Assembly (NCBI GenBank): GCA_026874595.1
Contig: CM049308.1
Span: forward strand, 11,807,501 to 11,871,500
DNA length: 64,000 nt
Source of the DNA: Sipunculus nudus
Taxonomy: Eukaryota; Annelida; Sipuncula; Golfingiida; Sipunculidae
Direction of reading: 5' to 3'
Below the pieces are notes generated by a model, which had not been told where the DNA came from, made no database searches, and worked only from the letters and a program-made list of their open reading frames with translations. Within the stretch, counting starts at the first letter, position 1. Each line of letters starts with the position of its first letter. Below, piece by piece: positions 4,988-63,469 of this stretch. The position numbers and the translations under genes were made by a program.

Positions 4988-5059
<72 letters not shown>

Positions 5060-7612: not shown

Positions 7613-7929
7613 AGTCAAACAAGTGACCCATGGGTCATGACGCTCAGCTGACTGGGAAGAGATTCACAAAAGGAAATTTTATCATCAGAATGGTAGTATA
7701 TACTCGTTCAACTGAAGCATCAAACAGATTAACCAACAGACCAAGATTAAGTCTGTATTTATATATCTATAAATAGAGAAAAAATGTGTAAACTTTAAAA
7801 ACTAGAACATGGGTAGCCCACAAGTGACTGTGTATCCGCCAAAATCAGAGTGGAACGGGTGAAGTGAGGCATGGATTGAGTGGCAAGGGGAAAAAAAGTG
7901 AGGTATGTTGCATATTAGCATGAATGTCT

Positions 7930-10290
7930 GCAGCCTGAATGTGTATGTAGGTTGTGCCACCTACTACAAATCCAGAAAGCTGTTCAAGTTGTATACATAT
8001 GCGAAATTTTAGGCAGAAAAGTCAAACCACTACATGTGTATGAGTGATTATAGCCCACGGCAGACAAACAGACAGACGCTGTGCAAAAATTATTGCAGTT
8101 GGCCCCTACAGTTTTGTGTATGATAAAGACCTGTGTGAGATCTAAACACAAACACAATTTTGGCCAAATTAGTCAAACGGTTCCTGAGATATGAGCTTGG
8201 ATTTGTGCAGCGTTAACTAGAATTTAGGTGGCGCCACCTGTCATAAAATCAAGAAAGCTGTCCAGGATGCATAAACCTGCAAAATTTTAGGCAGTCATGT
8301 CAAACCACTACAGAAAAATGAGTGATTTTAGGCCTCAGCAGACAAACAGACAGAAGCTGTGCAAAATTTGAAAAATGGTTGCAGGTAGCCCCTCCAGTTT
8401 TGTGTATGATAAAGACCTATGTGAGATCTATACACATGCAAAATTTTGGCCCAATCGTTCAAACGGTTCCCGAGATATGAGCTTGGATGTCTGCAGCGTA
8501 AACTAGAATGTAGGTGGCGCCACCTGTCATAAAATCAAGAAAGCTATCCAGGATGTATAAAGCTGCAAAATTTTAGGCAGATACGTCAAACCACTGCTGA
8601 GATATGAGTGACATTACCCCATGGCAGACAAACAGACAGACGCTGTGCAAAAATGGTTGCAGGTGGCAACTCTAGTTTTGTATGATAAAGACCTATGTGA
8701 GATCTAAACACATACACAATTTTGGCCCAATCAGTCAAACTGTTCCTGAGATATGAGCTTGGATGTGTGCAGCGTTAACTATAATTTAGGTGGCGCCACT
8801 TGTCATAAAATCAAGAAAGCTGTCCAGGTTGTATAAACCTGCAAAACTTTAGGCAGTTATGTCAAACCACTACAGAGAAATGAGTGATTTTAGGCCTCAA
8901 CAGGCAAACAGACAGCTCTGTGCAAAAAAAATTGCAAGTAGCGCCACCATTTGTTGTGTATGTTATAAAGCTATCCAAGGGCTACATTTGTATAAATTTT
9001 ATTTCCTGATCAGTCAAACAGTTCCTGAGATATGAGCTTGGATGTGTGCAGCGTTAACTAGAATGTAGGTGGCGCCACCTGTCATAAAATCAAGAAAGCT
9101 GTCCAGGATGTATAAACCTGCAAAATTTTAGGCAGTTATGTCAAACCACTACAGAGAAATGAGTGATTTTAGGCCTCAGCACACAAACAGACAGACGCTG
9201 TGCAAAATGTGCAAAAATGGTTGCAGGTAAAGACCTATGTGAGATCTATACACATGCAAAATTTTGGCCCAATTAGTCAAACTGTTCCCGAGATATGAGC
9301 TTGGATGCCTGCAGCGTAAACTATAGTGTAGGTGTTGCCACCTGTCATAAAATCAAGAAAGCTATCCAGGATGTATACGCATGCCTAATTTCAGGTGAAT
9401 TAGTCAATTCACTGCAGAAATATGAGTGATTTTAACCCAAGGCAGATGAACACTGTGCAAACATGGTTACAGGTGGCGCCACCATTTTTTGTGTATGTAA
9501 TGAAGCTATCCAAGGGCTACATTTGTATAAATTTTATTTCCTGATCGGTCAAACGGTTCCCAAGATATGAGCTTGGATGTCTGCAGCATGAACGTGAATA
9601 TAGGTGGTGCCACCTGTCATAAAATCAAGAAAGTTATCCAGGATGTATAAGCATGCCGAATTTCAGGTGAATTAGTCAATTCACTGCAGAGATATGAGTG
9701 ATTTTAACACAAGGCAGATGAACAGATGGACACTGTGCAAACATGGTTACAGGTGGCACCACCATTTTTATGTATGTTATGGACCTATCCAAGGGCTACA
9801 TTTGTATAAATTTTATTTCCTGATCGGTCAAACGGTTCCTGAGATATGAACTTGGATGTCATCAATGTGAACGTGAATATTTGTTGGCGCCACCTGTCAT
9901 AAATTCAAGAAAGCTATCCAGAATGTACAAGCATGCCGAATTTCAGGTGAATTAGTCAATTCACTGCAGAGATATGAGTGATTTTAACCCAAGGTGGTGA
10001 ACAGATGGACACTGTGCAAACACAGTTACAGGTGGCGCCACCATTTTTGTGTATGTTATAAAGCTATCCAAGGGCTACATTTGTATAAATTTTATTTCCT
10101 GATCGGTCAAACGGTTCCTGAGATATGAGGGTTTATGTGATGAAACAGACGCACAAATGGACACTGGGCAGACAGGAAAGGTCAGAGGTCAACGCAAATT
10201 GGTTAGGCACCAGTTCACATGTGACCCGATAATTGGTGCAAGTTTCAGAAAAATCGTGTTGTAGTTATTGAGATACTGCAGTTTTTGTAT
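7930..10290 (+). repeat. E1 array of ~280-bp dimeric units (type I)
   Basis: About seven to eight units, marked by CTGTCATAAAATCAAGAAAG near 8237, 8524, 8802, 9079, 9342, 9616 and 9893. Each unit is itself two related ~140-bp halves, each opening with GGTGGCGCCACC or a one-base variant and closing with GAGATATGAG. Confidence 0.85.
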
Positions 10291-11480
10291 CAAATTTTCC
10301 ATTATTCTGGGGGGGTATTTTGGAGTCATACAGCTTAAAGAATATGGGTAACAGAGACCTTATTTCAGGCTTCCATGGAGACTTTTCATGGGTCTCCCTG
10401 TGTGTCAAGAATGAAGATTCTAGGTCCAGTCTTTATGATTTGTGCCCTGTTAACAGATGTTCATATCTTAAAAGGTTTCAAAAATAGAGAAAAAATTTGT
10501 AAAAAAACCCGAACAAATACAGGTGGCACCACCAGTCTGCATAAACTGATGAAACACTCCATGATCAATACTTGAATGCCAAAAATCATGACCATCAATG
10601 ATGTAGTTAATGAGATATTGAAGTTTTTGTATGAAACTTTTGACTATTCTTGGGGGTACTTTGGGGCCCCATAGCTCGAAGGATATGGGTAACAGAGACC
10701 TAATTTCTGGTTTACATGGAGACTTTTCATAGGTCTCTCAGTGTGTTGAGAATGAAGATTCTAGGTTCAGTAGTTGAGATTTGTGCCACGCTAACAGATG
10801 ACAGCATCCTTAAAGGTCTGAAAAATAGAGGAAAAAATCATTTAAAAAATCGAACAATATAGGTGGCGCCACCAGTCTGCAGGAATTGATGGAACATCTC
10901 ATGATCAATATGTATGCCAAAAATCATGACCATCAGTGATGTAGTTATTGAGATATTGAAGTTTTTGTATGAAATTTTTGACTATTCTGGGGGGTACTTT
11001 GGGGACCCATAGCTTGAAGGATATGGGTAACAGAGACCTAATTTCTGGTTTCCAAGGAGATTTTTCATGGACCTCTCAGTGTGTCAAGAATTAAGATTCT
11101 AGGTCCAGTCTTTACGATTTGTGCCTTGTTAACAGATGTTCACATTTTTAAAGGTCTCAAAAATAGAGAAAAAAATTCGTAAAAATAAAAAAATACAGGT
11201 GGAGCCACCAGTCTGCAGGAAGTGATGGAACATCTCATGATCAATATGTATGCAAAAAATCATGACCATCAGTCAAGTAGTTAATGAGATATTGAAGTTT
11301 TTGTATGAAATTTTTTACTTTTCTGGGGGGTATTTTGGGGCCCCATAGCTCAAAGGATATGGGTAACAGAGACCTAATTTCTGGTTTCCGAGGAGATTTT
11401 TCATGGACCTCTCAGAATCCCAAGATACATGGTTCTAAGTCCAGTGGTTACAATTTGTGCCCTGTTAACGGACAGACGGC
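10270..11480 (+). repeat. E1 array of ~337-bp units (type II)
   Basis: Four units, marked by TATGGGTAACAGAGACC at 10343, 10684, 11022 and 11358. Each carries one GGTGGCGCCACC-like palindrome before CAGTCTGCA. The same unit is repeated six times in the element at 14729-18130. Confidence 0.87.
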
Positions 11481-14140: not shown

Positions 14141-17100
14141 CTACAAATATACAGCAAACAGGGGTTAAAATTCACACAATCTACTTAAACAGCAACGAGA
14201 GGTTCACAAACTTCACAAACTTAACAGATAAACAGCAAGCAAGGGATACAATTTATACAACAGTTATACAGCAAACGGGGGTTAAAATTCACACAATCAA
14301 CTTTTACAATAAAGAGAGGTTAAACTTCACAAAATTAACAGATAAACAGCAAACAAGAGAAACAATTTATACAACAGTTATACAGCAGACAGGGGTTGAA
14401 ATTCACACAACAGTTATACAGCAAACAGGGTTGAAAGTCTTACAATGAACAGCCCTTCAGATAAACAGCAAACAGGTTAAAATGTGCACAACAGTTATGC
14501 AACAAACATAGGTTGAAATTCACACAATGAAAAGCCTTTAGATAAACAGCAAACAGGCGGTAAAATTCATACAATAAACATTTATTCAGTGAACAGGCAT
14601 TAAATTTCACTCAACAGTTGAACAAAGGCAGGGTTCGAATTTCACACAATGAACAGACCTACAGAATACAGCACACAGGTAAGGTTGAAATTTACATAAT
14701 TTTACAAGTCCTCATTCAGAAATATAAACAAGTGACCCATGGGTCATGACGCTCAGCTGACTGGGAAGAGATTCGCAAAAGAAATTTTATCATCAGAATG
14801 GTAGTATATACCCATTCAACTGAAGCATCAAACAGATTAACCAATAGGCCAAGATTTAGTCTGTATTTATATATCTCGAAAATAGAGAAAAATGTGTAAA
14901 CTTTTAAAACTAGAATACGGGTAACCGACAAGTGACTACATGTATCTGCCAAAATCGGATAGTGAGGCATGGATTGAGTGGCAAGGGGAAATAGAGTGAG
15001 GTATGTTGCATATTAGCATGGATGTCTGCAGCCTAAATGTGCATGTAGGTTGTGCCACCTACCACAAATCCAGAAAGCTTTCCAAGTTGTATACACCTGC
15101 AAAATTTTAGGCAGAAAAGCCAAACCACTACATGTATATGAGAGATTTTTGCCCATGGCAGACAAACAGACAAACACTGTGCAAAAATCTTTGCAGGTAA
15201 CCCCTCCAGTTTTGTGAATGATAAAGACCAATGTGAGATCTAAACACATGCACAATTTTGGCCCAATCGGTCAAATGGTTTCTGAGATATGAGCTTGGAT
15301 GTGTGCAGCGTTAACTAGAATGTAGGTGGCGCCACCTGTCATAAAATCAAGAAAGCTGTCCACGATGTATAAACCTGCAAAATTTTAGGCAGTTATGTCG
15401 AACCACTACAGAGAAATGAGTGATTTTAGGCCACGGCAGACTAACAGACAGACGCTGTGCAAACATTGTTACAGGTGGCGCCACCATTTTTTGTGTATGT
15501 TACAGAGCTATCAAAGGGCTACATTTGTATAAATTTTATTTCCTGATCGGTCAAACGGTTCCCAAGATATAAGCTTGGATGTCATCAGCGTGAACGTGAA
15601 CATAGGTGGCGCCACCTGTCATAAAATCAAGAAAGCTATCCTCGATGTATACGCATGATGAATTTCAGGTGAATTAGTCAATTCACTGCAGAGATATGAG
15701 TGATTTTAACCCAAGGCAGATGAACAGATGGACACTGTGCAAACATGGTTACAGGTGGCGCCACCATTTTTTGTGTATGTTATAAAGCAATCCAAGGGCT
15801 ACATTTGTATCAATTTTATTTCCTGATCGGTCAAACGGTTCCCGAGATATGAGGGTTTATGAGTGGAAACAGACCCACAATTGGACACTGGATAGAGAGG
15901 AAAGGTCAGAGCTCAACGCAAATTGGTTAGGCACCAGTTCACATGTGACCCGATAATAGGTGTAAGTTTGGGAAAAATCGGTCCATTAGTCTCCGAGGAG
16001 CTCTCTGGAAACGAACGCCGCCGCGGTGGAGGAACTCCGTCAAAAACATAGTATCCGCAAAACTTCGTTTTGGCGGATACAAAAATACAGGTGGCTCCAC
16101 CAGTCTGCAGAAACTAATAAAAACACTTAATGGTCAATATCCATGCAAAAAATCATGGTGATCTCCCCATTAGTTGTTCAGATACTTCAGTTTTTGTATC
16201 AAATTGTCCATTATTCTGAGGGATACTTCGGAGTCCTATAGCTTGAAGGATATGGGTAACAGAGACCTAATTTCAAGTTTCCACAGGCACCTTTCATGGG
16301 CCTCCTTGCATGACAAGAATGAAGATTCTAGGTCCAGTTGTTGCGATTTGTACCCTGTTGACAGATAACCACATCTTTAAAGGTCTCAAAAAAAAGAAAA
16401 AAATTCGTAAAAATTTGAAAAAAAATAGAAGTGGCACACCCAGTCTGCAGAAACTGATGGAACAGCTCATGATCAATATGTATGCCGAAAATCATGACCA
16501 TCAGTGTTGTAGTTATTGAAATACTGCAGTTTTTGTATCAAATTTTCCATTATTCTGGGGGGGGGGGTATTTTGGACCCATACAGCTTAAAGAATATGGG
16601 TAACAGAGACCTAATTTCAAGTTTCCATGGAGACTTTTCATGGGTCTCCCTGTGTGTCAAGAATGAAGATTCTTGGTCCAGTTTTTATGATTTGTGCCCT
16701 GTTAACAGACGTTCATATCTTTAAAGGTCTCAAAAATACAGAAAAATTTCGTAAAAAAAACCGAACAAATACAGGTGGTGCCACCAGTCTGCAGAAACTT
16801 ATGAAACACTCCATGATCAATATCCATGCAAACAATTATGGTTATCTCTGCATTAGTTGTTCAGATACTTTAGCTTTTGTATCAAATTTTCCATTATTCT
16901 GAGCTGTACTTTGGAGTGCCATAGCTCAAAGGATATGGGTAACAGAGACCAAATTTCAGGTTTCCATGGAGACTTATCATGGGTCTCCCTGTGTGTCAAG
17001 AACGAAGATTCTAGGTCCAGTCGTTACGATTTGTACCCTGTTGACAGATAACTACATCCTTAAAGGTCTAAAAAATTGAGAAAACAATTCGTGAACATTG

Positions 17101-20100
17101 AAAAATACAGGTGGCGCCACCAGTCTGCACAAACTGATGAAACATCTCATGATCAATATGTATGTCGAAAATCATGACCATCAGTGATGTAGTTAATGAG
17201 ATATTGAAGTTTTTGTATGAAATTTTTGACTATTCTGGGGGGTAATTTTGGGCCCCATAGCTCGAAGGATATGGGTAACAGAGACCTAATTTCTGGTTTA
17301 CATGGAGACTTTTAATAGGTCTCTCAGTGTGTCGAAAATGAAGATTCTAGGTCCAGTCGTTACGATTTGTGCCACGCTAACAGATGACAGCATCCTTAAA
17401 GGTCTCAAAAATAGAGGAAAAAATCGTAAAAAATCAAACAGTACAGGTGGCGCCACCAGTCTGCAGGAACTGATTGAACATCTCATGATCAATATGTATG
17501 CCAAAAATGAAGACCATCAGTGATGTAGTTATTGAAATATTGAAGTTTTTGTATGAAATTTTTTACTATTCTGGGGGGTACTTTGGGGCCCCATAGCTCG
17601 AAGGATATGGGTAACAGAGACCTAATTTCTGGTTTCCAAGGAGATTTTTCATGGACCTCTCAGTGTGTCAAGAATTAAGATTCTAAGTCCAGTCTTTATG
17701 ATTTGTGCCTTGTTAACAGACGTTCACATTTTTAAAGGTCTCAAAAATAGAGAAAAAAATTCGTAAAAAATCGAAAAATACAGGTGGCGCCACCAGTCTG
17801 CAGGAAGTGATGTAACATCTCATGATCAATATGTATGCCAAAAATCATGACCATCAGTCAAGTAGTTAATGAGATATTGAAGTTTTTGTATGAAATTTTT
17901 GACTTTTCTGGGGGGTACTTTGGCGCCACATAGCTCGAAGGATATGGGTAACAGAGACCTAATTTCTGGTTTCCAAGGAGATTTTTTATGAACCTCTCAG
18001 AATCCCAAGTTACAAGGTTCTAGGTCCAGCGGTTACGATTTGTGCCTGGTTAACGGACGGACAGACGGACAGACGGACGACGGACAAAGAGTGATCGCTA
18101 TAGCTCAGATGACTTTCAGTCAGCTGAGCTAAAAATGATTTTTTGTATAAGCACAAATTTCACAGCAATGCACAGCATTTTGAAATTACATGTAACATAT
18201 TGATATTTTGTATGATGCAAGAGGACTGATATTATTATTAATGGCTCTGACAAGAATATATACCATAACTGATGGCTCTGTCAAGTCAAAATAAAATTAA
18301 ATATGATTTTCAGGTTTAAGATTATTCTCTATCTGTACCACACAAAATCATATTGCAGCAAAGATTTAGTCAAACAGGACACTTAAAGGCAAAGTAAATG
18401 AAGCCTTTCTGTTGTCTTCATCAAGACCACCCAGTAATTCTACTACTGGAGATCCATGAGAGCAATGCTACCAGGCAAAATTTAATTATATTTCACTGAG
18501 GCTCATACAAAAATATTAGTTTTTAATCATTTATCCCCAAAGCCATTTAAAAATTTTAATATTGCTGTAGATTCTTGCCTAATACTCAGCCATGATATTA
18601 TCAATATCAGTTGTAGAATCCTTCCTGAAATTGATAATCAATGACAACAATTCTAAGGAGAGACCAATCTTTGTTACAGGTAGGGTTGGGACCTATGATC
18701 TATTCAAGTCTATGGTCTATCAGCAGATGCAGATAATCTGTTGATCAATCTTGCATAGCCAAAATTTATTACAGAGTTTTTCTTTTTATAAGGTTAGGCT
18801 TTATAATGACTGAAAGTATGCTTAAATAAAATCTGAGAACAAACTTGAGGACAACCTGGTTTTTCTAAACAGATTTCAACCCAACTTTACTATATACACA
18901 TGTAGGCTACAGTTATCAGATATATTGGCCAATATTTAGGCCTATATATAAATTGAAAGGATGTACAGGCCTATATTTCATAAAATAAAATTTCACACTC
19001 CTAGAGTTTAGCAATTTTTACTGTATATTTGATCATAAAATTGCAACTGATTTCCCAACACTTCTCAAAAAGGACTAATAATTGATCACCAGCTGCTGAT
19101 ATACAGCTGATGATCAATCGTGACTCCCAACACAAGTTAATATCAAGACTGAATGTTCTGCTGATTCTGTAATTACCTGCACGTTTGGCCTGGTGGACCA
19201 TTTTTGCTAGACGTGACTGGGCTTTCCCACACAGTCCAGTGACTTGTCTTGACAGTATTTCGCCATCTGGTTGTAAAAACTGACTGATTATCATCACATC
19301 CTGCAGAAAACAAAATGTAAAACACCCTGTTACAAATCATCCATACGCAAAAGGTGAATTTCTCAGACTTTTATGTAGTACTTGTATACTGAAGTTGGAT
19401 TTATTTTCATGAGGCAAGGGTTTCATTTTTCATGATTTATCCATTTTGCAATTTTCCCGATTGCACCAGAACCTATAAAAATCTGAGTTAGGCAGTATTT
19501 GCATTTATAATAAAATAAAAATAAATCCCACACCTCACTCATTTTTGTTACAGTAATTATATTATGACCTGTGTTAGACTCAACATTTCCCCAGTGAAAA
19601 ATATAAATATCTCTTGCACAACTGGATCTATTCTTTTTCCATTAATTTGCAGTTTCCTTGTAATCACTAAGTAAAAACAGTATACATTTGTACTGAATCA
19701 ATTTAAAGTATTATGTAATATTACACTATTATGTTATGAATTTTAAATATGGTTATCTGGCTATCTATTGCTATAAAATAAATAGGGCAAAAAGGTTCAC
19801 AAACTTATTTGTGCATTGCCCTTGCATATCATGAATTGGTTCGTTTTGTGAGTTGCCTGGCAACACAGCCCTCACAAATACCTACCTGCAATATGTGCAA
19901 CAGAGACAGTACTTACTGTGTACTGGATATCATAATCCAGCTTCTTGGGACACAGTGGACAGAGACAGTACTTACTGTGTACTGGATATCATAATCCAGC
20001 TTCTTGGGACACAGTGGACAGAGACAGTACTTACTGTGTACTGGATATCATAATCCAGCTTCTTGGGACACAGTGGACAGAGACAGTACTTACTGTGTAC

Positions 20101-36648: not shown

Positions 36649-37941
36649 TCATAAGCTTTTATTCATAAATTCCATACATGTATGCAATATGACATCACAG
36701 TTTTTCAACGTTTTTAAACGTATATCCCTCTGTGTCTTATTATTCCTGTTTACGAGATTTATATAAATTTCCGTCTCAAATCTGAATGTTAAGTCTTGGA
36801 GACAAGCAGTAAAACGGACTTTTCTATTGTTAAACTTCTCCACATAAATATACCTTGTCCCTACCAAAATACAATAGTTCAGAATATCATATATCATTCC
36901 ATCTTCACTTCGTATTCCAAAAGAATATCCCTCAAACAGAGCTGTATGTAAATATCAATTATGTCGTTCCACCATGTCTGTAAGGTTTACTAAAAAATTA
37001 CGTACCACATGCATGACATTCAAATAAAAAATGTTCTATAGCGTCGATATCACTGCGATAATTACATCTAGGAGAGCTTATAATTTTTCATTAAATAACG
37101 TTTTATTACAAGGAAATATCAATGTCAATATTTTATATTGTAATGTCTGAAATTTTGTATCTCTGTGAACATGAAAAGGCAAACTGAATGTAACTGACCA
37201 ATCTATATCATCATAACTCTAGCTGTTAACAAATTGATGTCCACTTCACTAGTATAAAGTGTAAATACATCCGTTTAAGTTGTTATTAATGGACCCTCAT
37301 TTATCTGTTTTTTCCATGCTACTGATATAGCATCTACCAAACTAAAATACTTTAAGTATTCTCCTGGCCGTATATTAAATCTCTCCTAAATTCTATCAAA
37401 TATTAATACATTTTTACCTTCTATTATATTTTTTACATAAAAAAAGATTCGTAATAAACCACTTTTCCACCTAACATATGTTTACTGTTAAACCAGAGAG
37501 ACTCATCAAGAATTACCGTGTTACAGAATTCTTTTTTAAATTTCGACAGGATTTTAGGAACTGTTTGTAGAATCTAGGTAAATTTATCGGTATATCTCTT
37601 GGCCCATATGAAAATGTGATAAAGTCTCTTAGAGTGTGCCCTTTGAAATATACATCTATCACCGGATGGTACCATCTGTTACAAAATATTCTGCACCATG
37701 ATAACTTAAAACTTTGCAGAAAACTTTTTATTTCTACCATGTTCAAGCCTCCTTTGGTTATTTCATTACAAATAGCATATCTTTTTATTTTATCAGGCTT
37801 ACCTTTCCACAAATATGCATAAGACTTATGATTATTGTAATATTTCCTTTTAGAGGACAGATCTCTTTGTCTCCAAATATTTAACAAACAATTCAATTTA
37901 TCTAATCTTGAAGAAAAATATATGTTTTTTCTAAATGGCAA
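36649..37941 (-). pseudogene. LINE ORF2, C-terminal part
   Basis: A 142-codon frame (37941 to 37513) shows LDKLNCLLNIWRQRDLS, YLWKGKPDKIKR and GGLNMVEIKSFLQSFKLSW, the post-RT region of L1/Tx1 elements. Further pieces follow to the end of a second frame at 36649 (ILVGTRYIYVEKFNNRK, a YIW..K-like ending). About 250 bases of 3' flank separate this end from the reductase pseudogene. Confidence 0.82.
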
Positions 37942-38070
37942 AACACTTTTATGAGAACATACAGGTCCTATTTCTTGTACCCCCTTTGTTTACCAGTGCG
38001 AGTGCACTGGGTTTGTTGTCATGTGCTGTCCTCCAAGGCTGTATCTGGTGTCCATGACCTGTTTGTGCTT

Positions 38071-38220
38071 ACCCGATACTTTACCCTCCGAGAGATGCCA
38101 TCAGGCCAGGATGTCTGTCTGAACAATGGGATTCCAGCCCGAGCACATAGGTCATACCCACCAGTATATAGCAGAGGGCAGCTTTGACCCAGCCTCTTCT
38201 CCTGCTTGCACCACTGCTAT
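38071..38220 (+). repeat. DIRS element, left direct repeat (A1)
   Basis: 150 bp starting ACCCGATACTTTACCCTCC and ending CCACTGCTAT. About 90% identical to the right copy at 43154-43302. Confidence 0.9.
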
Positions 38221-38437
38221 ATTCACCAGGTTGATGTTATTCCCGGTGAAATAACTTTCAATTACTACTTGCAGGCCGTATATGATGTATATTTTACATT
38301 TTATAACATTGGCAATTGTAAAACGAATTTGCCGTTTTTACAAGCCCACAGGATTTTAATTTGTGCAGACATGGATATGTGACTGTTTGTTTTTCCCCTG
38401 CTGACTTGCTTTTGCTGGTGGAATAATAACTTTTCAG

Positions 38438-39455
38438 ATGCCTCTGAGAAAGCGCAAAGCCCCTCGTCGCCTGGTGGAAGAGGACTTGTCGGCTTCACGC
38501 AAGCAGGGTCGTAGAAGGTCTGCATGCATGTGTGCGGGATGCAGATACGCAGCCGACACCCTCCACTTCTCCATCGTCTGATACTGGGCTGTCCAATGCA
38601 CAATTTCAGGCTTTAGTTTCTGCCATATCGGACAAGGTCGGCTCTGACATGGATACAAGAATGGAAGATTTCCTCCAGTCCAAGGGCCTCCTTAGTTCAG
38701 CCTCTGGACCAGCTGACCAGGTTGCTAACAGTGTAGCCACAACGGTATCAGGTGAGACACCCCCTACCCCGTCGTGTGATGCTGTTACTGACCTGGTTGA
38801 CGAGGTCATCAACATCGCTGATCGTGTTGACCAAGCCCTTCGTGATGCCATCTGGCGGGGAGAGTTCATTGAACTCCACTTGCTGCTTAGTCTGTCCCCC
38901 TTTTACAACATCACAAAACGAGCCGCCCCTGGAGACAAAACCGATACCAAACCCCGCTTGCTCAATATCAGTGAGTGGTCATGGGCCTTTCATGTCTACA
39001 TGGCTGTGTATTGCCTGAACCAGGCTAAAGCTTCAGAAGCATCTGCTATGTGTACATACATGGAAGCCATACGTGCTTTGTATAATAATGGCAATGATTG
39101 GGCAACATATGACATTGAATTCGGCAAGCTTCGCGCACGGACTGCGAGGCACTGGGATAGGCGACATAGGGATCTTTGGATGGAGGCCTTAACTCTGAGG
39201 GGTTCTGGTCAAACAAAAAACAATTATAGATCCTCAAAATCCTCTTTGCCCTTTCGTAAACAACTCTCAACCAACCCCTGTTGGGCTTACAACAAGGATA
39301 GATCCTGTGCCCGCCAACCCTGTCCATTTGTGCACAAATGTACCATTTGCGGCAAACAAAATCCTGCCAGAAATTGTTACATGCAAGAGCACTCCACCCA
39401 ACAGAATCCGTCATTCACGAAATCTGCCCCATCCGCAATACAAATACCAGGCTAA
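38438..39455 (+). pseudogene. DIRS element gag-like protein
   Basis: The likely ATG at 38438 opens a basic N-terminus (MPLRKRKAPRRLVEE); one frameshift before 38532 connects to a 307-codon frame. That frame contains WAFHVYMAVY, DWATYDIEFGKLRA, HWDRRHRDLWMEA and a cysteine-rich CWAYNKDRSC..CPFVHKC..CG..NPARNC motif, which is the zinc-finger end of DIRS-type gag. It is the nucleic-acid-binding structural protein of the element. Confidence 0.78.
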
Positions 39456-39539
39456 ATAATTTTAACAGATCCCCAGTCGCCTTACCTGCCAGTCCCCCTG
39501 CCATTTCCAGGGCCACAAGCAAGTTCCCATTCAAGTCCA

Positions 39540-40587
39540 ATGTCTTGCCCTCCATCAGCCGTGCCCGATAATGCCTTTCTTCCAACTCCAGTGTGCCATG
39601 ACATCTTTGGCCACATGTTACAGAAATATAGCTACCCTAGACACCTCACAGCAGAACTTATACATGGATTCTCTAAAGGTTTTAGCTTAGGGTTTATTGG
39701 CACACCCAACAATCTTTGTCCCAAGAACCACAAATCAGCCTTAGCTCAACCAGAAATTGTAAATAAAACATTAGACAAAGAAAAGTCATTTGGCCGAATA
39801 GCAGGCCCTTTTCAACAGAAACCCTTTACATCTTTTCAAATATCCCCATTAGTAGTGGTCCCTAAAAAGCAACCGAACAAGTTCCGTTTGATTCACAATT
39901 TGTTTTACCCTGAATTCTACTCTGTTAATGCAGGAATCCCTCGTGATGCATCGTCGGTGTCATATGCTTCCATTCAAGATGCCATAGACCATCTACAGCC
40001 TTTAGGAACTAAAGCCTACCTAGCCAAAACTGATATATAAGCTGCATTCCGGCTTATACCCATATGCCCCAAATTCCACCATTTATTAGGTTTTCATTGG
40101 CAGGATCAGTATTATTATGATAAATGTTTATCAATGGGTTGCGCATCATCATGCAACATCTTTGAAAAGTTCAGCTCAGCTTTAGAATTTGTTGCTTCCA
40201 AATTATGTCAAATGGGTGCTATAGTTCATGTTCTGGGTGATTTTCTATTTATCAATGATAGCCCCGCCAAAACAAAGGCTATGCTCAGTGCATTTTTCTC
40301 ACTCTGTGAATCTTTAGGTGTACCTATAGCTCATGAAAAAAAACGAGGGTCCATCTCAAATTCTCATATTTTTGGGTATTGAATTAGATATAAAATCTCA
40401 ATCTGCTAGGTTGCCTGTTGACAAAATTATGAAAACCAAACACATGATCAATACCTATCTGTCTAAAGATAAAATAACTCTCCGAGAGCTGCAGTTCTTG
40501 ATTGGATTTCTCAATTTTGCCTGTGCAGTTGTGCTTCCAGGCAGGGCATTTTTGCGACGCTTATTGATAAGACCAGAGGCTTGTTGA
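39540..40587 (+). pseudogene. DIRS element reverse transcriptase
   Basis: Contains ISPLVVVPKKQPNKFRLIHNL, DAIDHLQPLGTKAYLAKTDI, AAFRLIP and LSMGCASSCNIFEKF. A TAA at 40038-40040 follows TDI in the first catalytic motif. In the catalytic DD box the first aspartate is Gly (GGT at 40236, VLGDFLFI). A frameshift near 40345 moves the thumb region (ELDIKSQSARLPVDKI) to another frame. Each of the first two defects should abolish activity. Confidence 0.88.
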
Positions 40588-41129
40588 AACCACATCATCA
40601 CACCAGATTAAATAAAGAAGTCAAATTAGATCTAAAATTGTGGCTTGAATTTTTAGAGTATTTCAATGGCAAATGTTTCTTTTTGGACGAAGACTGGCCC
40701 AATTCAGATTTGTTAGAGTTATACACTGATGCTGCTAAGGGTCTTGCTTTTGGTGCACTTTTTGGCCCTCAGTGGTTTTATGGAGAATTCCCCTCTAAAT
40801 GGAGCAATTATAACATTGTAACTCTAGAACTATGGCCTATTGTTTTAGCCCTGGAAACGTGGGGCTCACAACTAGCCAAAAGAAAGGTTCTAATTTTTAC
40901 TGATAACCAAGCATTGTTTTTTATTTTGAATAAACAGTCTACACCAGAACCCACCATAATGTATCTTGTTCGACGCTTTGTATTAGCGACATTGCGTCAT
41001 AATATCTTGTGCAAGGCACAACACATTCCCGGCCGTCTGAATTCTAAAGCTGATGCTTTATCCCGTTTTATCCCAACTGCGAACCTAACCCCAACTCAGA
41101 TCCAATCACTTCCTTCGACCCTGAATTAG
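40588..41129 (+). pseudogene. DIRS element RNase H
   Basis: One open frame keeps the four acidic residues of RNase H: ELYTDAAKG, TLELWPIVLALETWG, LIFTDNQALFFILN and GRLNSKADALSRF. This is the best preserved domain of the element. It would degrade the RNA strand during reverse transcription. Confidence 0.87.
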
Positions 41130-41990
41130 TTCAACTGGGGAAACATCTCATCACCAACAGTATATCAGCAAACTCCATAAGAACCTATTCTCGGGGCTGG
41201 GATTCATTCAAGGCCTTTTGTCAACTACACGGTCATCCAGACTTGGCCATTATTCCTGTCACCTCATGGACCATATTTTTGTTTTTGTCTGATAAATTTA
41301 GATTATGCTCTTCTGGCAGCACTCTGACTTCTTTAGCATCAGCAATTGCCTTTCCTCACAGACTTGCCAACAAGCCTGATCCAACGGCCACTGAGATCAT
41401 CCGCAGGCTCCTTGCTGGTGCTCGCAGACTTACTCCTTCTGTTGATTTGCGTTTCCCTATCACTTATTCTGTCTTATACCAATTGCTATCTGCCCTGAAA
41501 CACACCGTTCAGTCCATTTACCTGAGGAGTCTGTTCTCTGCTTTATACCTCACTTGTTTTCATGAGTTAGCGAGCTGATCCCTTCCAGTAAGTATGTAAT
41601 ACACAGTGTCATCCTGGTGTCTGATATATCTTTCTCTTGTGACAAAAATTCAACAGCTCGCATCACACTTCGTCATAGTAAAAATATGCCATTGGGTCGT
41701 TGTCAGATCATTGTAATTCAGTCCAAAGCTGCAGGTCCTTGCCCTGTTGCTTCACTTCATAAATTCTGCAAATCTCGAGGAAGCCTTCCTGGGCTCCTTT
41801 TTGGATCTCCCTCTGGATGCCCTATATCCCGTGCTGAATTTAGCAGTCAACACGTGATCTTCATTTTTGTAACCTTGACACCCAGAAATTTAAAGGCCAC
41901 AGCTTTAGGACTGGAGCTGCCACAGAGGCATCAAGAATCTTGGCCGTTGGAAATCAAATGCATTTAAAAAATATATCAGATTAAACATGG
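41130..41990 (+). pseudogene. DIRS element tyrosine recombinase
   Basis: The N-terminal core-binding part is clear (NSISANSIRTYSRGWDSFK, TSLASAIAFPHRL, RRLLAGARR). After a stop behind FHELAS, catalytic fragments follow in shifting frames: ITLRHSKN, then GHSFRTGAATEAS (His codon at 41898, Arg at 41907) and GRWKSNAFKKYIR (Tyr codon at 41972), with a frameshift between. The first catalytic arginine is not visible where expected. The protein would insert the circular DNA intermediate. Confidence 0.83.
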
Positions 41991-42104
41991 CTCATTGAAT
42001 TCATGTGTAAATGTCATGTTTTCGTAGTAGTTTTACCTGTACCCTTAAAGCCCTGTACCTGCAGTTATGTACCTCTACTGGTCTTTATATGCCTTTATAT
42101 TTTG

Positions 42105-43000
42105 CAGGAAGGGTGGCTCAAATGAGCCTATTTAATGACCATGCAATTGTTATAGCTTTCAGGAATAGTGTCTCACGTGAGCCTATTCCATGATCATTAT
42201 GTAATATAACTTTCCGGGATAGTGTCTCAAGTGACCCTATACCATGATCATCATATAACTGTTATATCTTTTGTGTCTCAAGTGAGCCTATTTCATGACC
42301 ATGTAATTGTAATAGCTTTCAGGAATAGTGTCTCAAGTTAGCCTATTCCATGTTTATTTTGTAATATGTTAAAACTTTCAGGGATAGTGTCTCAAGTGAG
42401 CCTATTCCATGACCATCATATAATTGTTATATCTTTCAGGAATAATGTCTTAAGTGAGCCTATTCCATGATCATTATGTAATTTGTTTAACACTTCAGGG
42501 ATAGTGTCTCAAGTGAGCCTATTCCATGTTCACTATGTAATATGTTATAACTTTCAAGGATAGTGTCTCAAGTCAGCCTATTCAATGTTTATTATGTTAT
42601 ATGTTATAACTTTCAGGGATAGTGTCTCAAGTGAGCCTATTCCATGACCATCATATAATTGTTATATCTTTCAGGTATAGTGTCTCAAGTGAGCCTATTC
42701 CATGATCATTATGTAATTTGTTTAAAACCTCAGGGATAGTGTCTCAAGTGAGCCTATTCCATATTCACTGTGTAATATGTTATAACTTTCAAGGATAGTG
42801 TCTCCAGAGAGCCTTTTCCATAGTGATTATGTAATATTTTATAACTTTCAGGGATAGTGTCTCAAGTTAGCCTATTTTTGAGCATCATGTAATTGCTATA
42901 ACTTTCAGGGATAGTATCTCAATTGAGCTTATTGCCTCATAACATTTAAATTTCAATCTTTCAGGGATGGTGTCTCAAGTGAGCCTATCCCTTGTGCACT
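42105..43000 (+). repeat. ~58-bp minisatellite in the DIRS 3' region
   Basis: About 15-16 tandem units built around GATAGTGTCTCAAGTGAGCC, TATTCCATGATCATTATG and TAACTTTCAGG. It lies between the recombinase and the right direct repeat. Units differ by small indels, so it is older than the 59-bp array at 19903. Confidence 0.92.
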
Positions 43001-43153
43001 GTTATTTTATTTATAGGCATGGGTAGTGTATTATATTAGCCACTGTATATTTTCAATCTGCTGTCTTTTCACTAACAATATGCACATGTTAGTTAAGGCC
43101 CGGCTTACATGTTTTATGTTCTTACTATCATATAATTTGTTTTGTTTTTTTTT

Positions 43154-43302
43154 ACCCGGTACTTTACCCTCCGATAGATGCCATCAGGCCAGGATGACTG
43201 GCTGAACAAATGGATTCTGGCCGTGCACAGAGGTCATACTCACCAGTATATAGCAGAGGACAGATTTGACCCAGCCTCTTCTCCTGCTTGAACCACTGCT
43301 AC
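43154..43302 (+). repeat. DIRS element, right direct repeat (A2)
   Basis: 149 bp starting ACCCGGTACTTTACCCTCC and ending CCACTGCTAC, in the same orientation as A1. Confidence 0.9.
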
Positions 43303-43509
43303 TATTAACCCCCCATTCGCCCCTTTCTCCTCCATGACTTTTTTTTTTTATTTTGATGTGTCTTATACATGTACTTGTATGATGTGTGGCGGTTTTGACC
43401 CCACCATACCTGGGTTTTGTTACTTATAATATTATTTTGTCATTTTTGGGGTGCGGGATAATTAATAATTTTTTTGGCCCCAGTGGGGTCCATTATCAAT
43501 CAATTGATG

Positions 43510-45890
43510 TCTAATGTTTTAATGTGTGCCTGGGCCTGAATGTGGTTCATAAATTCAATTTATCCATCTCTTTTTTTGTTGTTTGTAAACCATACTCCCA
43601 AGATTTTAAACGGTCCCTTGTTAACTTTTATACCAATTAGCGCCTCTCTTGCTGGCAGTGTCTTTCCACGAAATATTATTTCATATTTGTCAACACCAAG
43701 TTTTAATCCAGCGGCCAATTAAAATCCTTCTAGCAGTCTTAAAACTGATCCCAGAATACTGAATCTCAACAAATATTGTTTTATCGTCGCTAGATGTACT
43801 AATCTTTATTCATTTTGCCCTACGCATATTCCCTGATATCTGGAGCATTTCTGATTCTTATTGATAATATTTCAACAGCAGTTATAAAGAGCAGCGCGGA
43901 TATTGGACACCCTTGTCGGATGCCCCTTTCCAATTTAAAAAATCTGGTTGTACTCCCATTATTTATCACACAACTTTCAATGTTTGTACATAAAATTTTA
44001 ACCCATCTTCTTAAACGTGGTCAAAATTAAAATGTTCTAAAGTTTTATTAATAAAGCTCCAACTTAAGCTATCAAAATCTTGTTTAAAATTTGCTATTTG
44101 AATGATGCCCTTCTGGCATTTTTTAATGCAATAATCAAAAAGGCTCTCTATTGTTCTAGTGTTACAACCTTTGCGCCTGTTTTTCAAATAACCAGTCTGA
44201 AATTCACTAATTATTAAAGGTAACACTTTTTGCATACGTATGGCTAAAACTTTTGTTAACAATTTACAGTCCGCATTGAGCAAGGTTTTGGGACGCCAGT
44301 TTTTAAGATATCTCAAATCTTTTTGCCCATTTTTGGTATTAAGTTTATTATCCATCTTCTTTTTTCTACACTGCGCAGTCCATTTTCAAAAGAATAAGAA
44401 TACGATTCTAATAATGAATCTTTTAGATTTAACCAGAAAATTTTATAAAACTCGACGGTAAATCCGTCTGTTCCCGGACTCTTTCCATTTTTCATTAAGC
44501 TTAATGCTTTTTTACATTAACTGAGTGTTATATCTACTTCACAAAAGGATGATTCAACTTCTCCTAAAGTAGGATCTTCATAATACCCTTTGAAAAAATA
44601 ATCTTCATTTATTTCAGATGTATCATCTTTCATATACAATTCTTCATAGAATTCTTTCTGTAGCTCAAGTATAAAGGTTGGATTTTTAATTAAACAATCG
44701 GCCTTCATTAAAGACACGATCAATCTAGCTGTTTTATTTCTCTTTTCTAAATTTAGAGAATGTTTCGTATTTCTTTCCCCTAATTCAACACAACTTGCTT
44801 CCGATCGTATAATAGCTCCTTTGGTATAGTAGGCATTAAATTGTTCAATTTTACACAGTAACTGTTCATATCTCCCTCCATCTTTCTCATTTTTATCATT
44901 ATCTAGTTTCTTTTTTAATATATTTAACTCCCTATTTATCTGATCTTCTTCTAATCTACGTTCCTTCGCTTTTGCAGTGGAGTATTGTGCACAAAATGCC
45001 CTCACATCACATTTAATAATTCTAAAGCCGTGTTTCTATTTATCAATCGCTAATTTGGATCTATACTGGTTTTAACAGTATTTATACATTCCAAAACGAA
45101 ATTATTATCTTTTAATAGATCAGCATTAAATTTCCAAAATCCCTTACCTCTTATCTTTGGTCATTTAGAATTATAGTAATAGAAATTAAACAATGATCAG
45201 TTTTAATTGTCGGGCATATCTGCGTGTTAAGAATATTAAATTGTAAATGCTCACTTACTAACCAGTAATCTAGATTTGACTGCATTTTTGGTCTGTTTTG
45301 CTGATAAGTGCAACCTTTTTTATTGATATTGCGCGATCTTAAGATTTCAACAAGTTTAAAAACATCCATCATGTTTACTATAGCCTAGGCATACCTTGTC
45401 CTAGCTTTGTTCAAAACAGGACATCTATCCAAACTAGGATTTATACAAGTATTTAGATCTCCACCCAATATAATGGTACAATCATTGTATGTCTCTAAAT
45501 ATTCATACACGTGCGATTCTATTTCTTCCTGGAATTTTAATTTATCCTGCATGTGATCACCAGTTGGCGCATAGCAATTCACCATTAAACACTTTTGCTC
45601 GTTTATATTCAACAAAACAAACTAGTATCTTCCATATTCGTCACTAATCTGCACTTGGAAACAAAATGGCTACTCCTTTAATTTTGGAAGTACAAAGTGA
45701 ATATAAAATATTACTACCCCACTCATTTTTCCAAATTTGTTCTATTGATTGCTCAGAATGCGTCTCTTGTAAAAATATAACACCTTTATGGAATCTTTAA
45801 GTTATCTAAATATCTGTCGACGTTTTTTCTTATCTCCTAGACCGTTAACATTTATGCTAGCAAAATAACACTCACTCATAAACTTGAAAA
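43510..45890 (-). pseudogene. LINE ORF2, endonuclease and reverse transcriptase
   Basis: Endonuclease: ASINVNGLGDKKKRR, LQETHSEQS, CYAPTGDH, IILGGDLN and KTDHCLI, the landmarks of APE-type endonuclease, in several frames. Reverse transcriptase: GERNTKHSLNLEKRN, NGKSPGTDGFTVEFY, WRPKTLLNADCKLLTKVLA, SEFQTGYLKNRR, FKQDFDSLSW, then in another frame LERGIRQGCPISALLF and SSDDKTIFVE, in place of the usual ADD box. This is the L1/Tx1 form. Frameshifts near 45860, 45620, 45010, 44500 and 44010 and several stops show it is dead. Confidence 0.85.
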
Positions 45891-46221
45891 GCAATTAAAA
45901 ACTTAATACCCCGCAAAACATCAAATAGATTTAAAACCATATATGTCAGATCGCCATTACATCTACATCCCAACAATACCTTGTCAAAAATGTCAAATTG
46001 TACAAATATAAACAGAATCCTCAGACTTCTCACCATTCCAATATTGATGATCATAACTATCATCGGCTCAATGCCTCCTCGTGATATTTAGTTATTTATA
46101 CCTTGTAGTTATGGTAACAATAATACTGTAGATTATTAAACATCAGTAATCACTTCAAAATAGCGGTTTTATTTCTCAGATGTGAAACTGTAAACCCATA
46201 CCACAAGTACCCAGAATGTCA

Positions 46222-46662
46222 CTATTTCATAAAATCCCGGACTCTCATCAAGATATCACCAAACACATTTCTACCTCGCCACTTGGATTTTATATTTGCA
46301 TTGGCATCATTTAGACTGAGTCCAGCACCCAAAAATTTGTCAAATTTATTACAGTCTATCATAGGTCTGTCACCAGTTTCTACGAGTTCTTTTCTCAGGG
46401 CAATGTTTTGTTCATATTTTTCTCTTTCCGCTGCTTCCATTATTTGTTCGGCCCCTGTGTTGTTCCATCGATCTTTATCCCTTTGCACTCTGCGACCCAT
46501 CTTGTACTGCTCAACAGGTATATTTGTTTTCATAATCTCACCGGCGACATCTTCATTTCCTATGACCATAGCTCTCTGATACTGAAAATACTGATTTACT
46601 GAACTGTATTGTCTCCCATTCAGTATAAAGCAACAGGCACTAAAACTACTGAAATTTGAACT
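46222..46662 (-). pseudogene. NADAR (YbiA-like) domain downstream of LINE ORF1
   Basis: About 146 codons with the NADAR pattern: SNFSSFSACCFILNG and YSSVNQYFQYQRAM (family: LSNF...F..dG..f.svEqyyqy.KA), KMGRRV..DKDRWN, REKYEQNIALRKELVETGD (family: KF.QN..L...L..T), DKFLGAGLSLND, KWRGRNVFGDILMRVRDFM, then a stop. NADAR domains act on NAD/ADP-ribose derivatives, and members remove ADP-ribose from guanine. The usual glutamate of the EQ motif is Asn here and the Trp of the WG motif is Leu, so this copy may be inactive. It follows ORF1 on the same strand, parted only by a TAA and one frameshift near 46665, with related linker sequence (LIIEGRRNTLDNLDTLPDGL) in between. I read it as the ORF1 C-terminal domain. 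Confidence 0.82.
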
Positions 46663-46778
46663 TGCCCATAGAATAAAATGGCATTCTCACAGGAGCGCAT
46701 CGCTAACTGACGAGGCTGCAGTCCGTCAGGAAGAGTATCTAAGTTGTCCAATGTGTTCCTGCGTCCTTCAATAATCAG

Positions 46779-47114
46779 TTAGTCGGCCACCAATGTAGCC
46801 TTCATTATCATTATGCGCGCTTTCTTCTTAATCGCGTACATTTTTACCCGCCTTTGTTCAATTTCCATCGGAAAGTCCTCCATCATAACTATGTCGGTTT
46901 CCTTCAGTTTATTTCTCAGCCTCCATACACAATCTCTATCACCAAACCGAACAAACCGAACAATTATATCTCTACACTTATTCCGGTTTCTCGAAGGATC
47001 CCCCAACCTATGACAGCGCTGAAATTCAATATCTACCACATTGTCTACCCTCAGCTTATCTATAAACAGATTCTGTACTTTCTTTGTACTTACGCTCTTT
47101 ACACAGCGCTTAAC

Positions 47115-47163
<49 letters not shown>

Positions 47164-47956
47164 TCAACTACCTATATCGTAAGCGCTGTTTGTTTTGACC
47201 TTGTATCCTGAATCTCTACACTAGAGGGGAGCACTGTATTTTGGTCCAATCAGATGAGACCCTGTGCTGGAAGACAAAACGGTTTACCAGCCAAGCGAGG
47301 AATACACGAAGTCAATGTTGTTCATTTCGTTTTTAATGACAGCTAATCGCCCCGGCGACAGTTTCAACAGGCCACAGGCTCAGAGAGAATGGCCCCGCGC
47401 GTGGTTTCTGGGCGGAGCCTGATGCCTGTCGATTGTTTGTTGACTTGCATTTGGATGGCTACTAGTCACATCAGCAGTTTTTTTCAGCAGACAGGCCCAT
47501 TTGCACCACCTGGTGTTTAAGTGCATCATAAACAGTCAAAGCAAGCAGCGGGAATATCAATAGCTTCTTTTGAAGCGCAGGATTTCCGCCGCCTCGCGAG
47601 CGTAATAGTACTCGATTCGTTAGAATCTTCAAGTAGTCCAGAAAATTTCAACTTCCCTCTCCTTAAATAAGTGTCGAAATGTAAAAGTCTCTCTTTTAAA
47701 TCATGATTTTCTGATTTATTTTCTTCTAACTGTTGCAATATTTTCGAGTACTCCCCTTTTTGTTCTTTTACTGTCTCAATTCAGATTTAGTCCCTTTTAA
47801 CTCAACCTGTGTGTGTTCAAGAGAATCTTGTTAACTTTAAAAGTTTTCAAATTCAGCTCTTAACTGACCAACCTCTGTAGCAAGACCAACCATGGAATTA
47901 TTCATTTTCTCAATCTGGCTTTGTAGCTCTCTCATACTTTTATTCAAATCTGTCAT
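46779..47956 (-). pseudogene. LINE ORF1: coiled coil, RRM and C-terminal domain
   Basis: The frame starts at ATG 47954-47956 with a heptad-rich coiled coil (LNKSMRELQSQIEKMNNSM, then LEENKSENHDLKERLLHFD), with stops in between. An RRM opens with RRGKLKFSGLLEDSNES and continues after an insertion at FIDKLRVDNVVDIEFQRCHR and RDIIVRFVRFGDRDCVWR, then the C-terminal part EDFPMEIEQRRVKMY. This is the L1 ORF1p (Transposase_22) plan: an RNA chaperone that coats the element's RNA. About 400 bases (47119-47560, including an (AT)n tract) interrupt the RRM. A TAA follows TLVAD, but homology to an extended protein continues towards the NADAR domain. Confidence 0.8.
47119..47160. repeat. (AT)n microsatellite in LINE ORF1
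   Basis: About 21 AT dinucleotides at the edge of the insertion that splits the ORF1 RRM. Confidence 0.9.
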
Positions 47957-62370: not shown

Positions 62371-62389
62371 AATTTAATTGGATACAGAT

Positions 62390-63469
62390 ATGGCAACGGG
62401 AGGTGGAACGGTTCTGGTAACAGGAGCCTCGGGTTACATCGCAACTCATGTTGTAAAACAATTACTTCAAGCTGGTTACAAAGTCCGCGGTACTGTACGT
62501 AGTTTGAAGAATGAGAAAAAGGTACAGCCCCTACGTGACATCTGTCCTGAAGCCAAGGGCGCCTTGGAACTAGTTGAGGCGGACTTGATGGACGAAAGCT
62601 CATGGGTTCCCGCAGTAGAGGGTTGTGATTTTGTGATGCATTTAGCAAGCCCATACCCTGCTACTAATCCGAAGACAGATGACGAATTAATCAAACCTGC
62701 TGTTGAAGGAACACTGTCAGTGCTGAGGGCTTGTAAAGCTGCAGGTACAGTCAAAAGAGTAGTCTTGACAAGTTCAGTAGCGTCTGTTGCATATTCGGCT
62801 CCGAATGGTAAAATCTGCACTGAGCAAGACTGGACCGACGAAGATGACATGACCAACGGAGCTTACATACGGAGCAAGGTGAAAGCTGAAAAGGCAGCGT
62901 GGAAGTTTATGGAGTCTCTGGGAGAAGGAGAAAAGTTTGAACTAGCTGTGGTCAACCCAGGCTTTGTGATGGGACCTGCTCTGTGTGGGACAATGACCAC
63001 AAGCATGGAAGCCCCGAAACAGCTCATGCAAAACGAGATGCCAATGTTAGCTAGAATAAGCTTTGCACTATGTGACGTCAGAGATGTTGCTACAGCCCAT
63101 CTCAGAGCGATGACGATACCCGAGGCAGCCGGTCATCGCCATATCATCGCCAACCGATCGATGTGGCTCCAAGAACTTGCTGCTATTATCGATAAGGAAT
63201 TCCGACCACAGGGATATAAGGTCCCATCCAAAAATGCGCCTAAATGGTTACTGCGTTTGATAGGCCTGTTTGATAAAACAACGAAGCTGATGCTTCCAAT
63301 GATCGACAAAGAAATCTTAGTAGACAACAATCGGCTCGTGAAGGTCTTGGGTATCAACCCATTTCCTGTGGAGCAGACCATTATCGACATGTGCTATGAC
63401 ATGGTTGACTCGGGTCACATCAAGAAAACCCCGCAGTACAAATCCCGCGCCACCGGAGCACAGACCTAG
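62390..63469 (+). CDS. Extended SDR NAD(P)-dependent reductase (dihydroflavonol/cinnamoyl-CoA-reductase-like)
   Basis: An uninterrupted 359-residue frame from ATG 62390 to TAG 63467-63469. Residues about 5-20 hold the Rossmann cofactor motif TGASGYIATHVVKQLL (TGxxGxxA/G), followed by RGTVRSLKNEKK, typical of NADP-preferring members. The LASPYP and VVLTSSVASVAY strands lead to the catalytic YIRSK (YxxxK) around residue 163, and NPGFVMGP follows. Length and order match the extended SDR family that includes dihydroflavonol reductase, cinnamoyl-CoA reductase and yeast YDR541C-type aldehyde/ketone reductases. The substrate in molluscs is unknown. A strong acceptor (TTTTTTTTAG, ending 62370) 19 bases before ATG suggests an upstream non-coding exon. 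A broken paralogue lies 26 kb away at 35161-36398, on the same strand. Confidence 0.93.
   Translation: MATGGGTVLVTGASGYIATHVVKQLLQAGYKVRGTVRSLKNEKKVQPLRDICPEAKGALELVEADLMDESSWVPAVEGCDFVMHLASPYPATNPKTDDELIKPAVEGTLSVLRACKAAGTVKRVVLTSSVASVAYSAPNGKICTEQDWTDEDDMTNGAYIRSKVKAEKAAWKFMESLGEGEKFELAVVNPGFVMGPALCGTMTTSMEAPKQLMQNEMPMLARISFALCDVRDVATAHLRAMTIPEAAGHRHIIANRSMWLQELAAIIDKEFRPQGYKVPSKNAPKWLLRLIGLFDKTTKLMLPMIDKEILVDNNRLVKVLGINPFPVEQTIIDMCYDMVDSGHIKKTPQYKSRATGAQT

Follow-up and report, generated by a model that had tools for sequence, protein, structure and literature searches.

A Decayed LINE Copy in Sipunculus nudus From a Family Whose ORF1 Protein Carries a NADAR Domain

The window (the whole 64,000-nt stretch of DNA analysed here) contains on its minus strand a decayed copy of a LINE, whose family encodes an ORF1 protein (ORF1p) that runs from coiled coil through RRM and C-terminal domain (CTD) to NADAR in one frame and is followed by ORF2. 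The fusion of NADAR to ORF1 in this LINE family is close to certain. It is real and inherited, and since the available sections of one paper report NADAR in the ORF1 of oyster LINEs, it is also known in kind (PMC12477816). The window copy itself is dead, as stop codons, a frame shift within NADAR, an insertion of 525 nt, and an element nested in ORF2 interrupt it.

NADAR Domain, ORF1, and ORF2 of the Window Copy

The NADAR domain that the initial annotation had proposed for the minus strand lies at 46225-46686(-) (Pfam E=1.8e-32). A predicted model and its match to the YbiA fold also support the domain, so that both profile and fold place it in the NADAR superfamily. The ORF1 of the window copy has coiled coil, RRM, and CTD in the L1-type order. 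Pfam matched no ORF1 family in the two ORF1 pieces, which speaks against an easy L1 label; the Pfam check that the annotation had suggested for the minus-strand translation was therefore positive for NADAR and negative for an ORF1 family.

The ORF1 frame at 47171-46779(-) closes with a TAA at 46779-46781. Translation beyond this stop in the same frame yields linker and ...SCENAILFYG as far as 46665, where AILFYG corresponds to the first NADAR strand in the model of the family protein P0002 (residues 283-286). Because this first strand stands in the ORF1 frame and the remaining NADAR is read in a different one, the frame break falls inside the domain. The TAA and frameshift described earlier, with linker reading across, are thus present. 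In tblastn searches, family proteins align collinearly from 47950 to 46225, P0002 and others ending at 46225, with the homology interrupted at 47609-47085 by an insertion of about 525 nt. The parts of the element are as follows:

47610-47950 (-): ORF1 coiled coil and the first part of the RRM, interrupted by stops (tblastn, P0002 residues 27-84 and 101-144)
47085-47609 (no strand): insertion of about 525 nt within ORF1, with (AT)22 at 47117-47160 (seen as a break in the collinear tblastn alignment; the C7 copy lacks it and has a continuous frame)
46665-47084 (-): ORF1 RRM, CTD, linker, and first NADAR strand, all in the same frame but for the stop at 46779-46781 (P0002 residues 149-288, 54% identity; translation)
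46222-46686 (-): NADAR domain as the ORF1 C-terminus, in the other frame, with a stop at 46222-46224 (Pfam E=1.8e-32; model and fold match)
45154-45879 (-): ORF2 start and AP-like endonuclease, broken (motifs; Exo_endo_phos_2 E=1e-4, under its cut-off, two pieces joined)
43563-44516 (-): ORF2 reverse transcriptase, broken (RVT_1 E=6.5e-8 on 44011-44385; motifs)
38060-43310 (+): retroelement inserted at a later time within ORF2 (each end has a direct repeat of about 168 bp, the two being 88% identical; RT_RNaseH E=3.5e-7 at 40473-41129)
36652-37989 (-): ORF2 continuation to the C-terminal part, broken (open frames like the ORF2 of the C7 copy, compared by eye)

Across the 64-kb window, tblastn with family proteins found no second copy of NADAR-ORF1 at E<=1e-3, and Rfam gave no match at the gathering score. 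ORF2 begins about 340 nt past the ORF1 stop (MSECYFASINVNG at 45879) and contains AP-like endonuclease motifs and a reverse transcriptase, both broken, the combination expected of an AP-endonuclease/reverse transcriptase LINE. The endonuclease piece matched none of the LINE chains in the PDB at E<=1, a further point against an easy L1 label, and Pfam gave no match on the ORF2 continuation at 36652-37989(-). Among solved LINE proteins, a piece of the ORF2 of the C7 copy matches L1 ORF2p only, and weakly (E=0.002). The nested retroelement at 38060-43310(+) includes a 59-bp tandem array at 42095-42994; it may be kin to DIRS/Ngaro elements, which is a guess.

Copies of the Family in the Same Genome

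Scoring 150 of the 204 NADAR candidates in the genome searched (1.43 Gb in 153 contigs) yielded at least 141 matches at E<=0.001. The window NADAR as query gave 77 genome matches, the best apart from itself being a copy on contig C7 (the C7 copy), at 84% identity within a 350-aa open frame. This frame (L018:1584-2636) reads through RRM, CTD, and NADAR uninterrupted by stops and is followed by ORF2 pieces at 3461-5766, and most of its coiled coil is missing. Local profiles applied to 40 loci, some of which are the same place, identified five ORFs at three places (C7, C5, and C11) that join RRM and NADAR pieces in one frame; at other loci near the window's family, the two pieces stand in adjacent broken frames.

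A DNA search with window 45400-47080 recovered 23 pieces. Besides the window itself, C7 (92%) and C5 (86%) contain the query in full; C13 (79%) contains the greater part and C12 (91%) two thirds. Since the same-genome copies share this arrangement in DNA, the NADAR belongs to the element, and the order RRM-NADAR-ORF2 that they retain confirms the position first assigned to the domain, between the RRM part and ORF2.

With the C7 copy as reference, NG86 dN/dS for NADAR is 0.63 (window), 0.64, 0.76, 0.30, 0.59, 0.45, 0.53, and 1.68 (74 codons), and for RRM-CTD it is 1.04 (window), 0.55, 0.82, 0.64, 0.30, and 0.59. These ratios would weakly support purifying selection on the NADAR and RRM-CTD of the subfamily, the support being weak because every value shares one reference and includes drift in dead copies.

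Single-ORF Relatives and Co-Inheritance

Proteins with the fusion in a single ORF numbered 11 in a first search and 69 in a wider one, and 54 of 66 aligned unnamed public proteins fill both the RRM and the NADAR parts of the layout. The two parts are co-inherited (r=0.74, reached by 0 of 2000 permutations), and a relative has the L1 ORF1p fold ahead of its NADAR. As judged from aligned sequences, this shows a NADAR inherited together with the RRM part throughout a large family. As to a possible single origin of NADAR in this family (class A below), a tree of 68 rows (60 ORF1 and 8 free NADARs) requires three changes, and constraining all 60 ORF1 NADARs together is not rejected (AU p=0.475). 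Collections of viral contigs and genome contigs yielded pattern matches, none of which was confirmed as a relative.

The claim that NADAR is fused to a LINE ORF1 therefore stands on both the single-ORF relatives and the same-genome copies. Relatives do have ORF1 and NADAR in one frame, and the pattern that would have spoken against the fusion, an ORF1 ending at the TAA with no NADAR, did not appear. That a fragment of a host NADAR landed by chance behind ORF1 in the window copy has a single point in its favor, the broken frame of that copy. The DNA arrangement common to same-genome copies and the existence of single-ORF relatives rule it out, and the first NADAR strand lying in the ORF1 frame also speaks against it, so that its probability is vanishingly small.

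Active Site

YbiA-type NADARs hydrolyse guanine-ADP-ribose, according to the available parts of two papers (PMC11543638, PMC11125620), in agreement with the initial annotation, which had ascribed to NADAR proteins the reversal of guanine ADP-ribosylation. The accessible text of the former names E43, K50, R79, W89, E125, D130, and W133 as some of the residues that contact ligand in the Phytophthora nicotianae NADAR (PMC11543638). For the E. coli C7 NADAR, the same text describes the E125 equivalent as an Asp that is required; Ala at the E43 equivalent has a minor effect in vitro and Gln is inactive, and Arg at the K50 equivalent hydrolyses in vitro but fails in rescue (PMC11543638).

These positions were mapped onto the family via 8bau, and 55 of the 66 family rows have letters at the six sites that remain once R79, ranking 99th of 157 columns in conservation, is left out as poorly conserved. 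The other contacts rank 4th (W89), 7th (E43), 23rd (W133), 26th (D130), 28th (K50), and 32nd (E125). E43 is Glu in 54 of the 55 relatives, 42 combine E43 with K/R50 and E/D125, and all six sites are canonical in 32, leaving 23 that deviate at one or more. A set of 25 representatives at 50% identity has Glu at E43 without exception, and 18 of them are canonical at all six sites.

The window copy reads N, R, W, D, D, and L at E43, K50, W89, E125, D130, and W133. Its subfamily, counted over nine copies in this genome (the window and C7 among them), has N at E43 in 8/8 readable copies, R at K50 in 7/8 (one stop), D at E125 in 6/7 (one A), and W at W133 in 5/7 (the window has L and C5 has M). With N, R, and D, as in its subfamily, where a YbiA-type site has E43, K50, and Glu at E125, the window copy is therefore not classed as a YbiA-type hydrolase. 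Mere decay of the window copy was considered as the origin of N, R, and D and is ruled out, as these residues are common to the subfamily. The Leu at W133 is probably decay, because no other readable copy has it. Arg at K50 and Asp at E125 may be tolerated, judging by published mutants and Asp-type NADARs (PMC11543638, sections available). Asn at E43 would be the main doubt, and whether the window's subfamily erases ADP-ribose is uncertain because its site is changed at E43, K50, and E125. A more distant copy in the same genome (L032, on C1) has M at E43 and canonical residues at the other sites.

A Second Class of NADAR LINE

Twenty stretches around NADAR places, mainly chosen for long frames, were fetched. 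Half of them are LINEs in which the ORF1 zinc knuckles precede NADAR, here called class B (L019, L020, L022, L023, L024, L025, L026, L027, L028, and L031); the other ten comprise five NADAR-GDSL stretches (L013-L017), two of class A (L018 and L032), two of RING type (L021 and L029), and one bacterial-looking contig (L030). Two further class B LINEs, L058 and L059, were recognized by eye in a smaller fetch. Pfam identifies both zinc knuckle and NADAR in L019, L020, and L028, and NADAR alone in L022 and L025, where the zinc knuckle was assigned by eye. Endonuclease and reverse transcriptase lie downstream of ORF1 in L019, L022, and L025 (Pfam), and pieces of the L022 ORF2 match L1 ORF2p at 1.5e-51 and 2.6e-35, the R2 match being far weaker.

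Class B copies are young: overall identity among them is 97-99%, with L022/L023 at 99.2% over 5.0 kb, L022/L024 at 98.8% over 5.5 kb, and L025/L026 at 98.2% over 5.8 kb. The L022 ORF1 as genome query matched at least 109 stretches (94 of 327 candidates scored). Five related ORF1s (L060-L064), picked for matching the L022 ORF1 only in its N-terminal part, have a tail after the zinc knuckles instead of NADAR, and a local NADAR profile found the domain in none of the five at E<=10. Since related ORF1s without NADAR exist, the domain is a variable module in class B. Four class B NADARs all have Glu at E43, together with K, R, R, or C at K50 and N, Y, L, or L at E125, so that the acid is absent from the last position in all four. 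Between copies of class B, a crude pN/pS ranges from 0.53 to 1.87, with the two pairs that include L023 inflated by a frame change in its N-terminal part.

Other NADAR Genes and the NADAR Tree

NADAR also occurs outside LINEs in this genome. L005-L007 are stand-alone NADARs, 190-198 aa long (L007 by Pfam), and L021:596-2524(+) has RING, B-box, and NADAR by Pfam in one unbroken frame. By eye, L057 resembles L021 and L029 starts RING-like, both ending in NADAR within one unbroken frame. L021 and L057, as RING/B-box genes, have Q at the E125 position. Several RING/B-box-NADAR genes lie near one another on C5. In L014 and L016, Pfam joins NADAR to a GDSL esterase; the NADAR-GDSL ORFs of L013-L017 are multi-copy, some copies being 98-99.6% identical, and L014 has an upstream PHD-finger ORF with a weak Ulp1-protease match. 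L030 (contig C133), where the neighbour of NADAR is an apparent bacterial leucyl-tRNA synthetase, judged by eye, is probably a bacterial contig within the assembly.

A tree was built from 36 chosen NADARs, with classes named beforehand and long branches present. Four class B LINEs, together with L021 and L029, are separated from class A by a starred branch (100/98), and a topology constrained to unite the two classes is rejected (AU p=0.0055, log-likelihood lower by 36.5). Class A is not one clade in this tree (three changes), as the divergent P0066 and P0067 fall near YbiA and the GDSL type. The support for two NADAR lineages in the LINEs of this genome, as read from the tree, is good but not final. 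A broader reading is that LINEs of this animal acquired NADAR on two or more occasions, in two ORF1 types of different structure (coiled coil-RRM-CTD and zinc knuckle), and that a unit of zinc knuckle plus NADAR moved between host RING/B-box genes and the ORF1s of LINEs; the handling of ADP-ribose would then be contested repeatedly by host and retrotransposon, with some of the domains hydrolases and others, perhaps those of the window's subfamily, readers. This reading is tentative and somewhat unlikely.

Relation to Known Systems

Among the papers listed in literature searches, only one reports such a fusion; available in part, it describes NADAR in the Pol of Ectocarpus Gypsy elements and in the ORF1 of several Crassostrea gigas Tx1 LINE families from Repbase (PMC12477816, 2025). 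The C. gigas families, mollusc LINEs of the L1/Tx1 type, have a YbiA-family NADAR within ORF1, and as far as this description goes the window LINE would be of a like kind. The Ectocarpus elements are likewise retrotransposons with a NADAR, but they are LTR elements with the domain in another protein and another place; the likeness is one of description. The same applies to invertebrate RNA virus polyproteins, where NADAR also sits on a replicating RNA-based element, in this case a virus polyprotein, as far as the available text describes it (PMC9503650). Class B LINEs, the RING/B-box grouping, and the changed site were not found among the matches listed in searches of NADAR/retrotransposon literature, for which RING and B-box were not query terms, and NADAR and YbiA have no occurrences in PMC11203168.

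Human LINE-1 ORF1p, unlike the ORF1 of the window LINE, has no NADAR domain. E. coli YbiA and the P. nicotianae NADAR share the fold, and share site residues with most class A relatives; they differ in being free-standing, unfused to an RNA-binding protein, and the window's subfamily departs from them with its N, R, and D. An ORF1p with an ADP-ribose hydrolase fold links the control of LINEs to nucleic-acid ADP-ribosylation. As the site is kept in many ORF1s and changed in some subfamilies, natural variants allow a test of erasing against jumping. If class B LINEs and RING/B-box genes truly exchanged NADAR, a host pathway would be indicated. The two NADAR LINE classes in one genome and their residue patterns would be the points for a specialist to take further.

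Proposed Role of the Fused Domain

L1 ORF1p binds L1 RNA. By analogy, the ORF1p of this family would coat its element's RNA and, because of this coating, the fused NADAR would be carried on the retrotransposition particle and act there on ADP-ribose. In most of the family, the domain would probably be an active hydrolase, removing ADP-ribose in guanine-linked (or similar) form from the element's nucleic acid or from nearby ADP-ribose derivatives. For the window's subfamily, the domain may have reduced or altered activity, or it may serve instead to bind ADP-ribose or nucleic acid. As a whole, a LINE fused to a NADAR that acts on ADP-ribose is the best explanation, with about an even chance of being correct; ADP-ribose processing as the role of NADAR in the wider family, as read from its residues, falls just short of even. 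Points against the explanation are the N, R, and D of the window's subfamily, the 23 relatives that deviate at one or more sites, the poor conservation of R79, NADAR dN/dS values that lie only slightly under 1 and in one case exceed it, and the missing E125 acid in class B. The site kept in most of the family argues for hydrolysis, and the window's subfamily and class B suggest that the fold may be used otherwise in some lineages.

The residues N, R, and D of that subfamily, along with N, Y, or L at E125 in class B LINEs and Q in L021 and L057, would also fit a NADAR fold that binds ADP-ribosylated molecules or nucleic acid without cutting and so helps ORF1p hold RNA or reach ADP-ribose-rich sites. 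However, the site columns are strongly conserved in most class A relatives, which mere binding need not require, and we consider this rather unlikely. A narrower form of the hydrolase explanation is counter-defence, wherein host CARP-1 or pierisin-like enzymes would ADP-ribosylate guanine in the element's DNA or RNA and the ORF1p-NADAR would erase the mark. CARP-1 and pierisins do modify guanine (PMC11543638) and NADARs reverse guanine ADP-ribosylation (PMC11125620), according to the parts of these papers available, and the active site is retained in most of the wider family. The changed site of the window's subfamily counts against counter-defence, which is unlikely. To our knowledge, no ADP-ribose mark on LINE nucleic acid is known.

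The hydrolase could instead act during retrotransposition on ADP-ribose derivatives that are present at RNA ends or arise from RNA repair, removing them with no link to host defence. Such a role was suggested for the Ectocarpus and oyster elements (PMC12477816), and the trans-splicing protein SNA-3 is inactive when its NADAR residues are mutated (PMC9303266), both as given in the accessible portions of these sources. No substrate is known for it, and the present data do not separate it from counter-defence; processing of the RNA intermediate is quite unlikely as the specific role. The preferred explanation remains a NADAR that acts on ADP-ribose on the particle.

Other Features of the Window

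Two blocks, at 7912-11469 and 15010-18059, each include a tandem array of about 280-bp units followed by a tandem array of 336-bp units. An unbroken 363-aa frame at 62378-63469(+) is of the NAD-dependent epimerase/3-beta-HSD kind (Pfam Epimerase E=1.3e-26).
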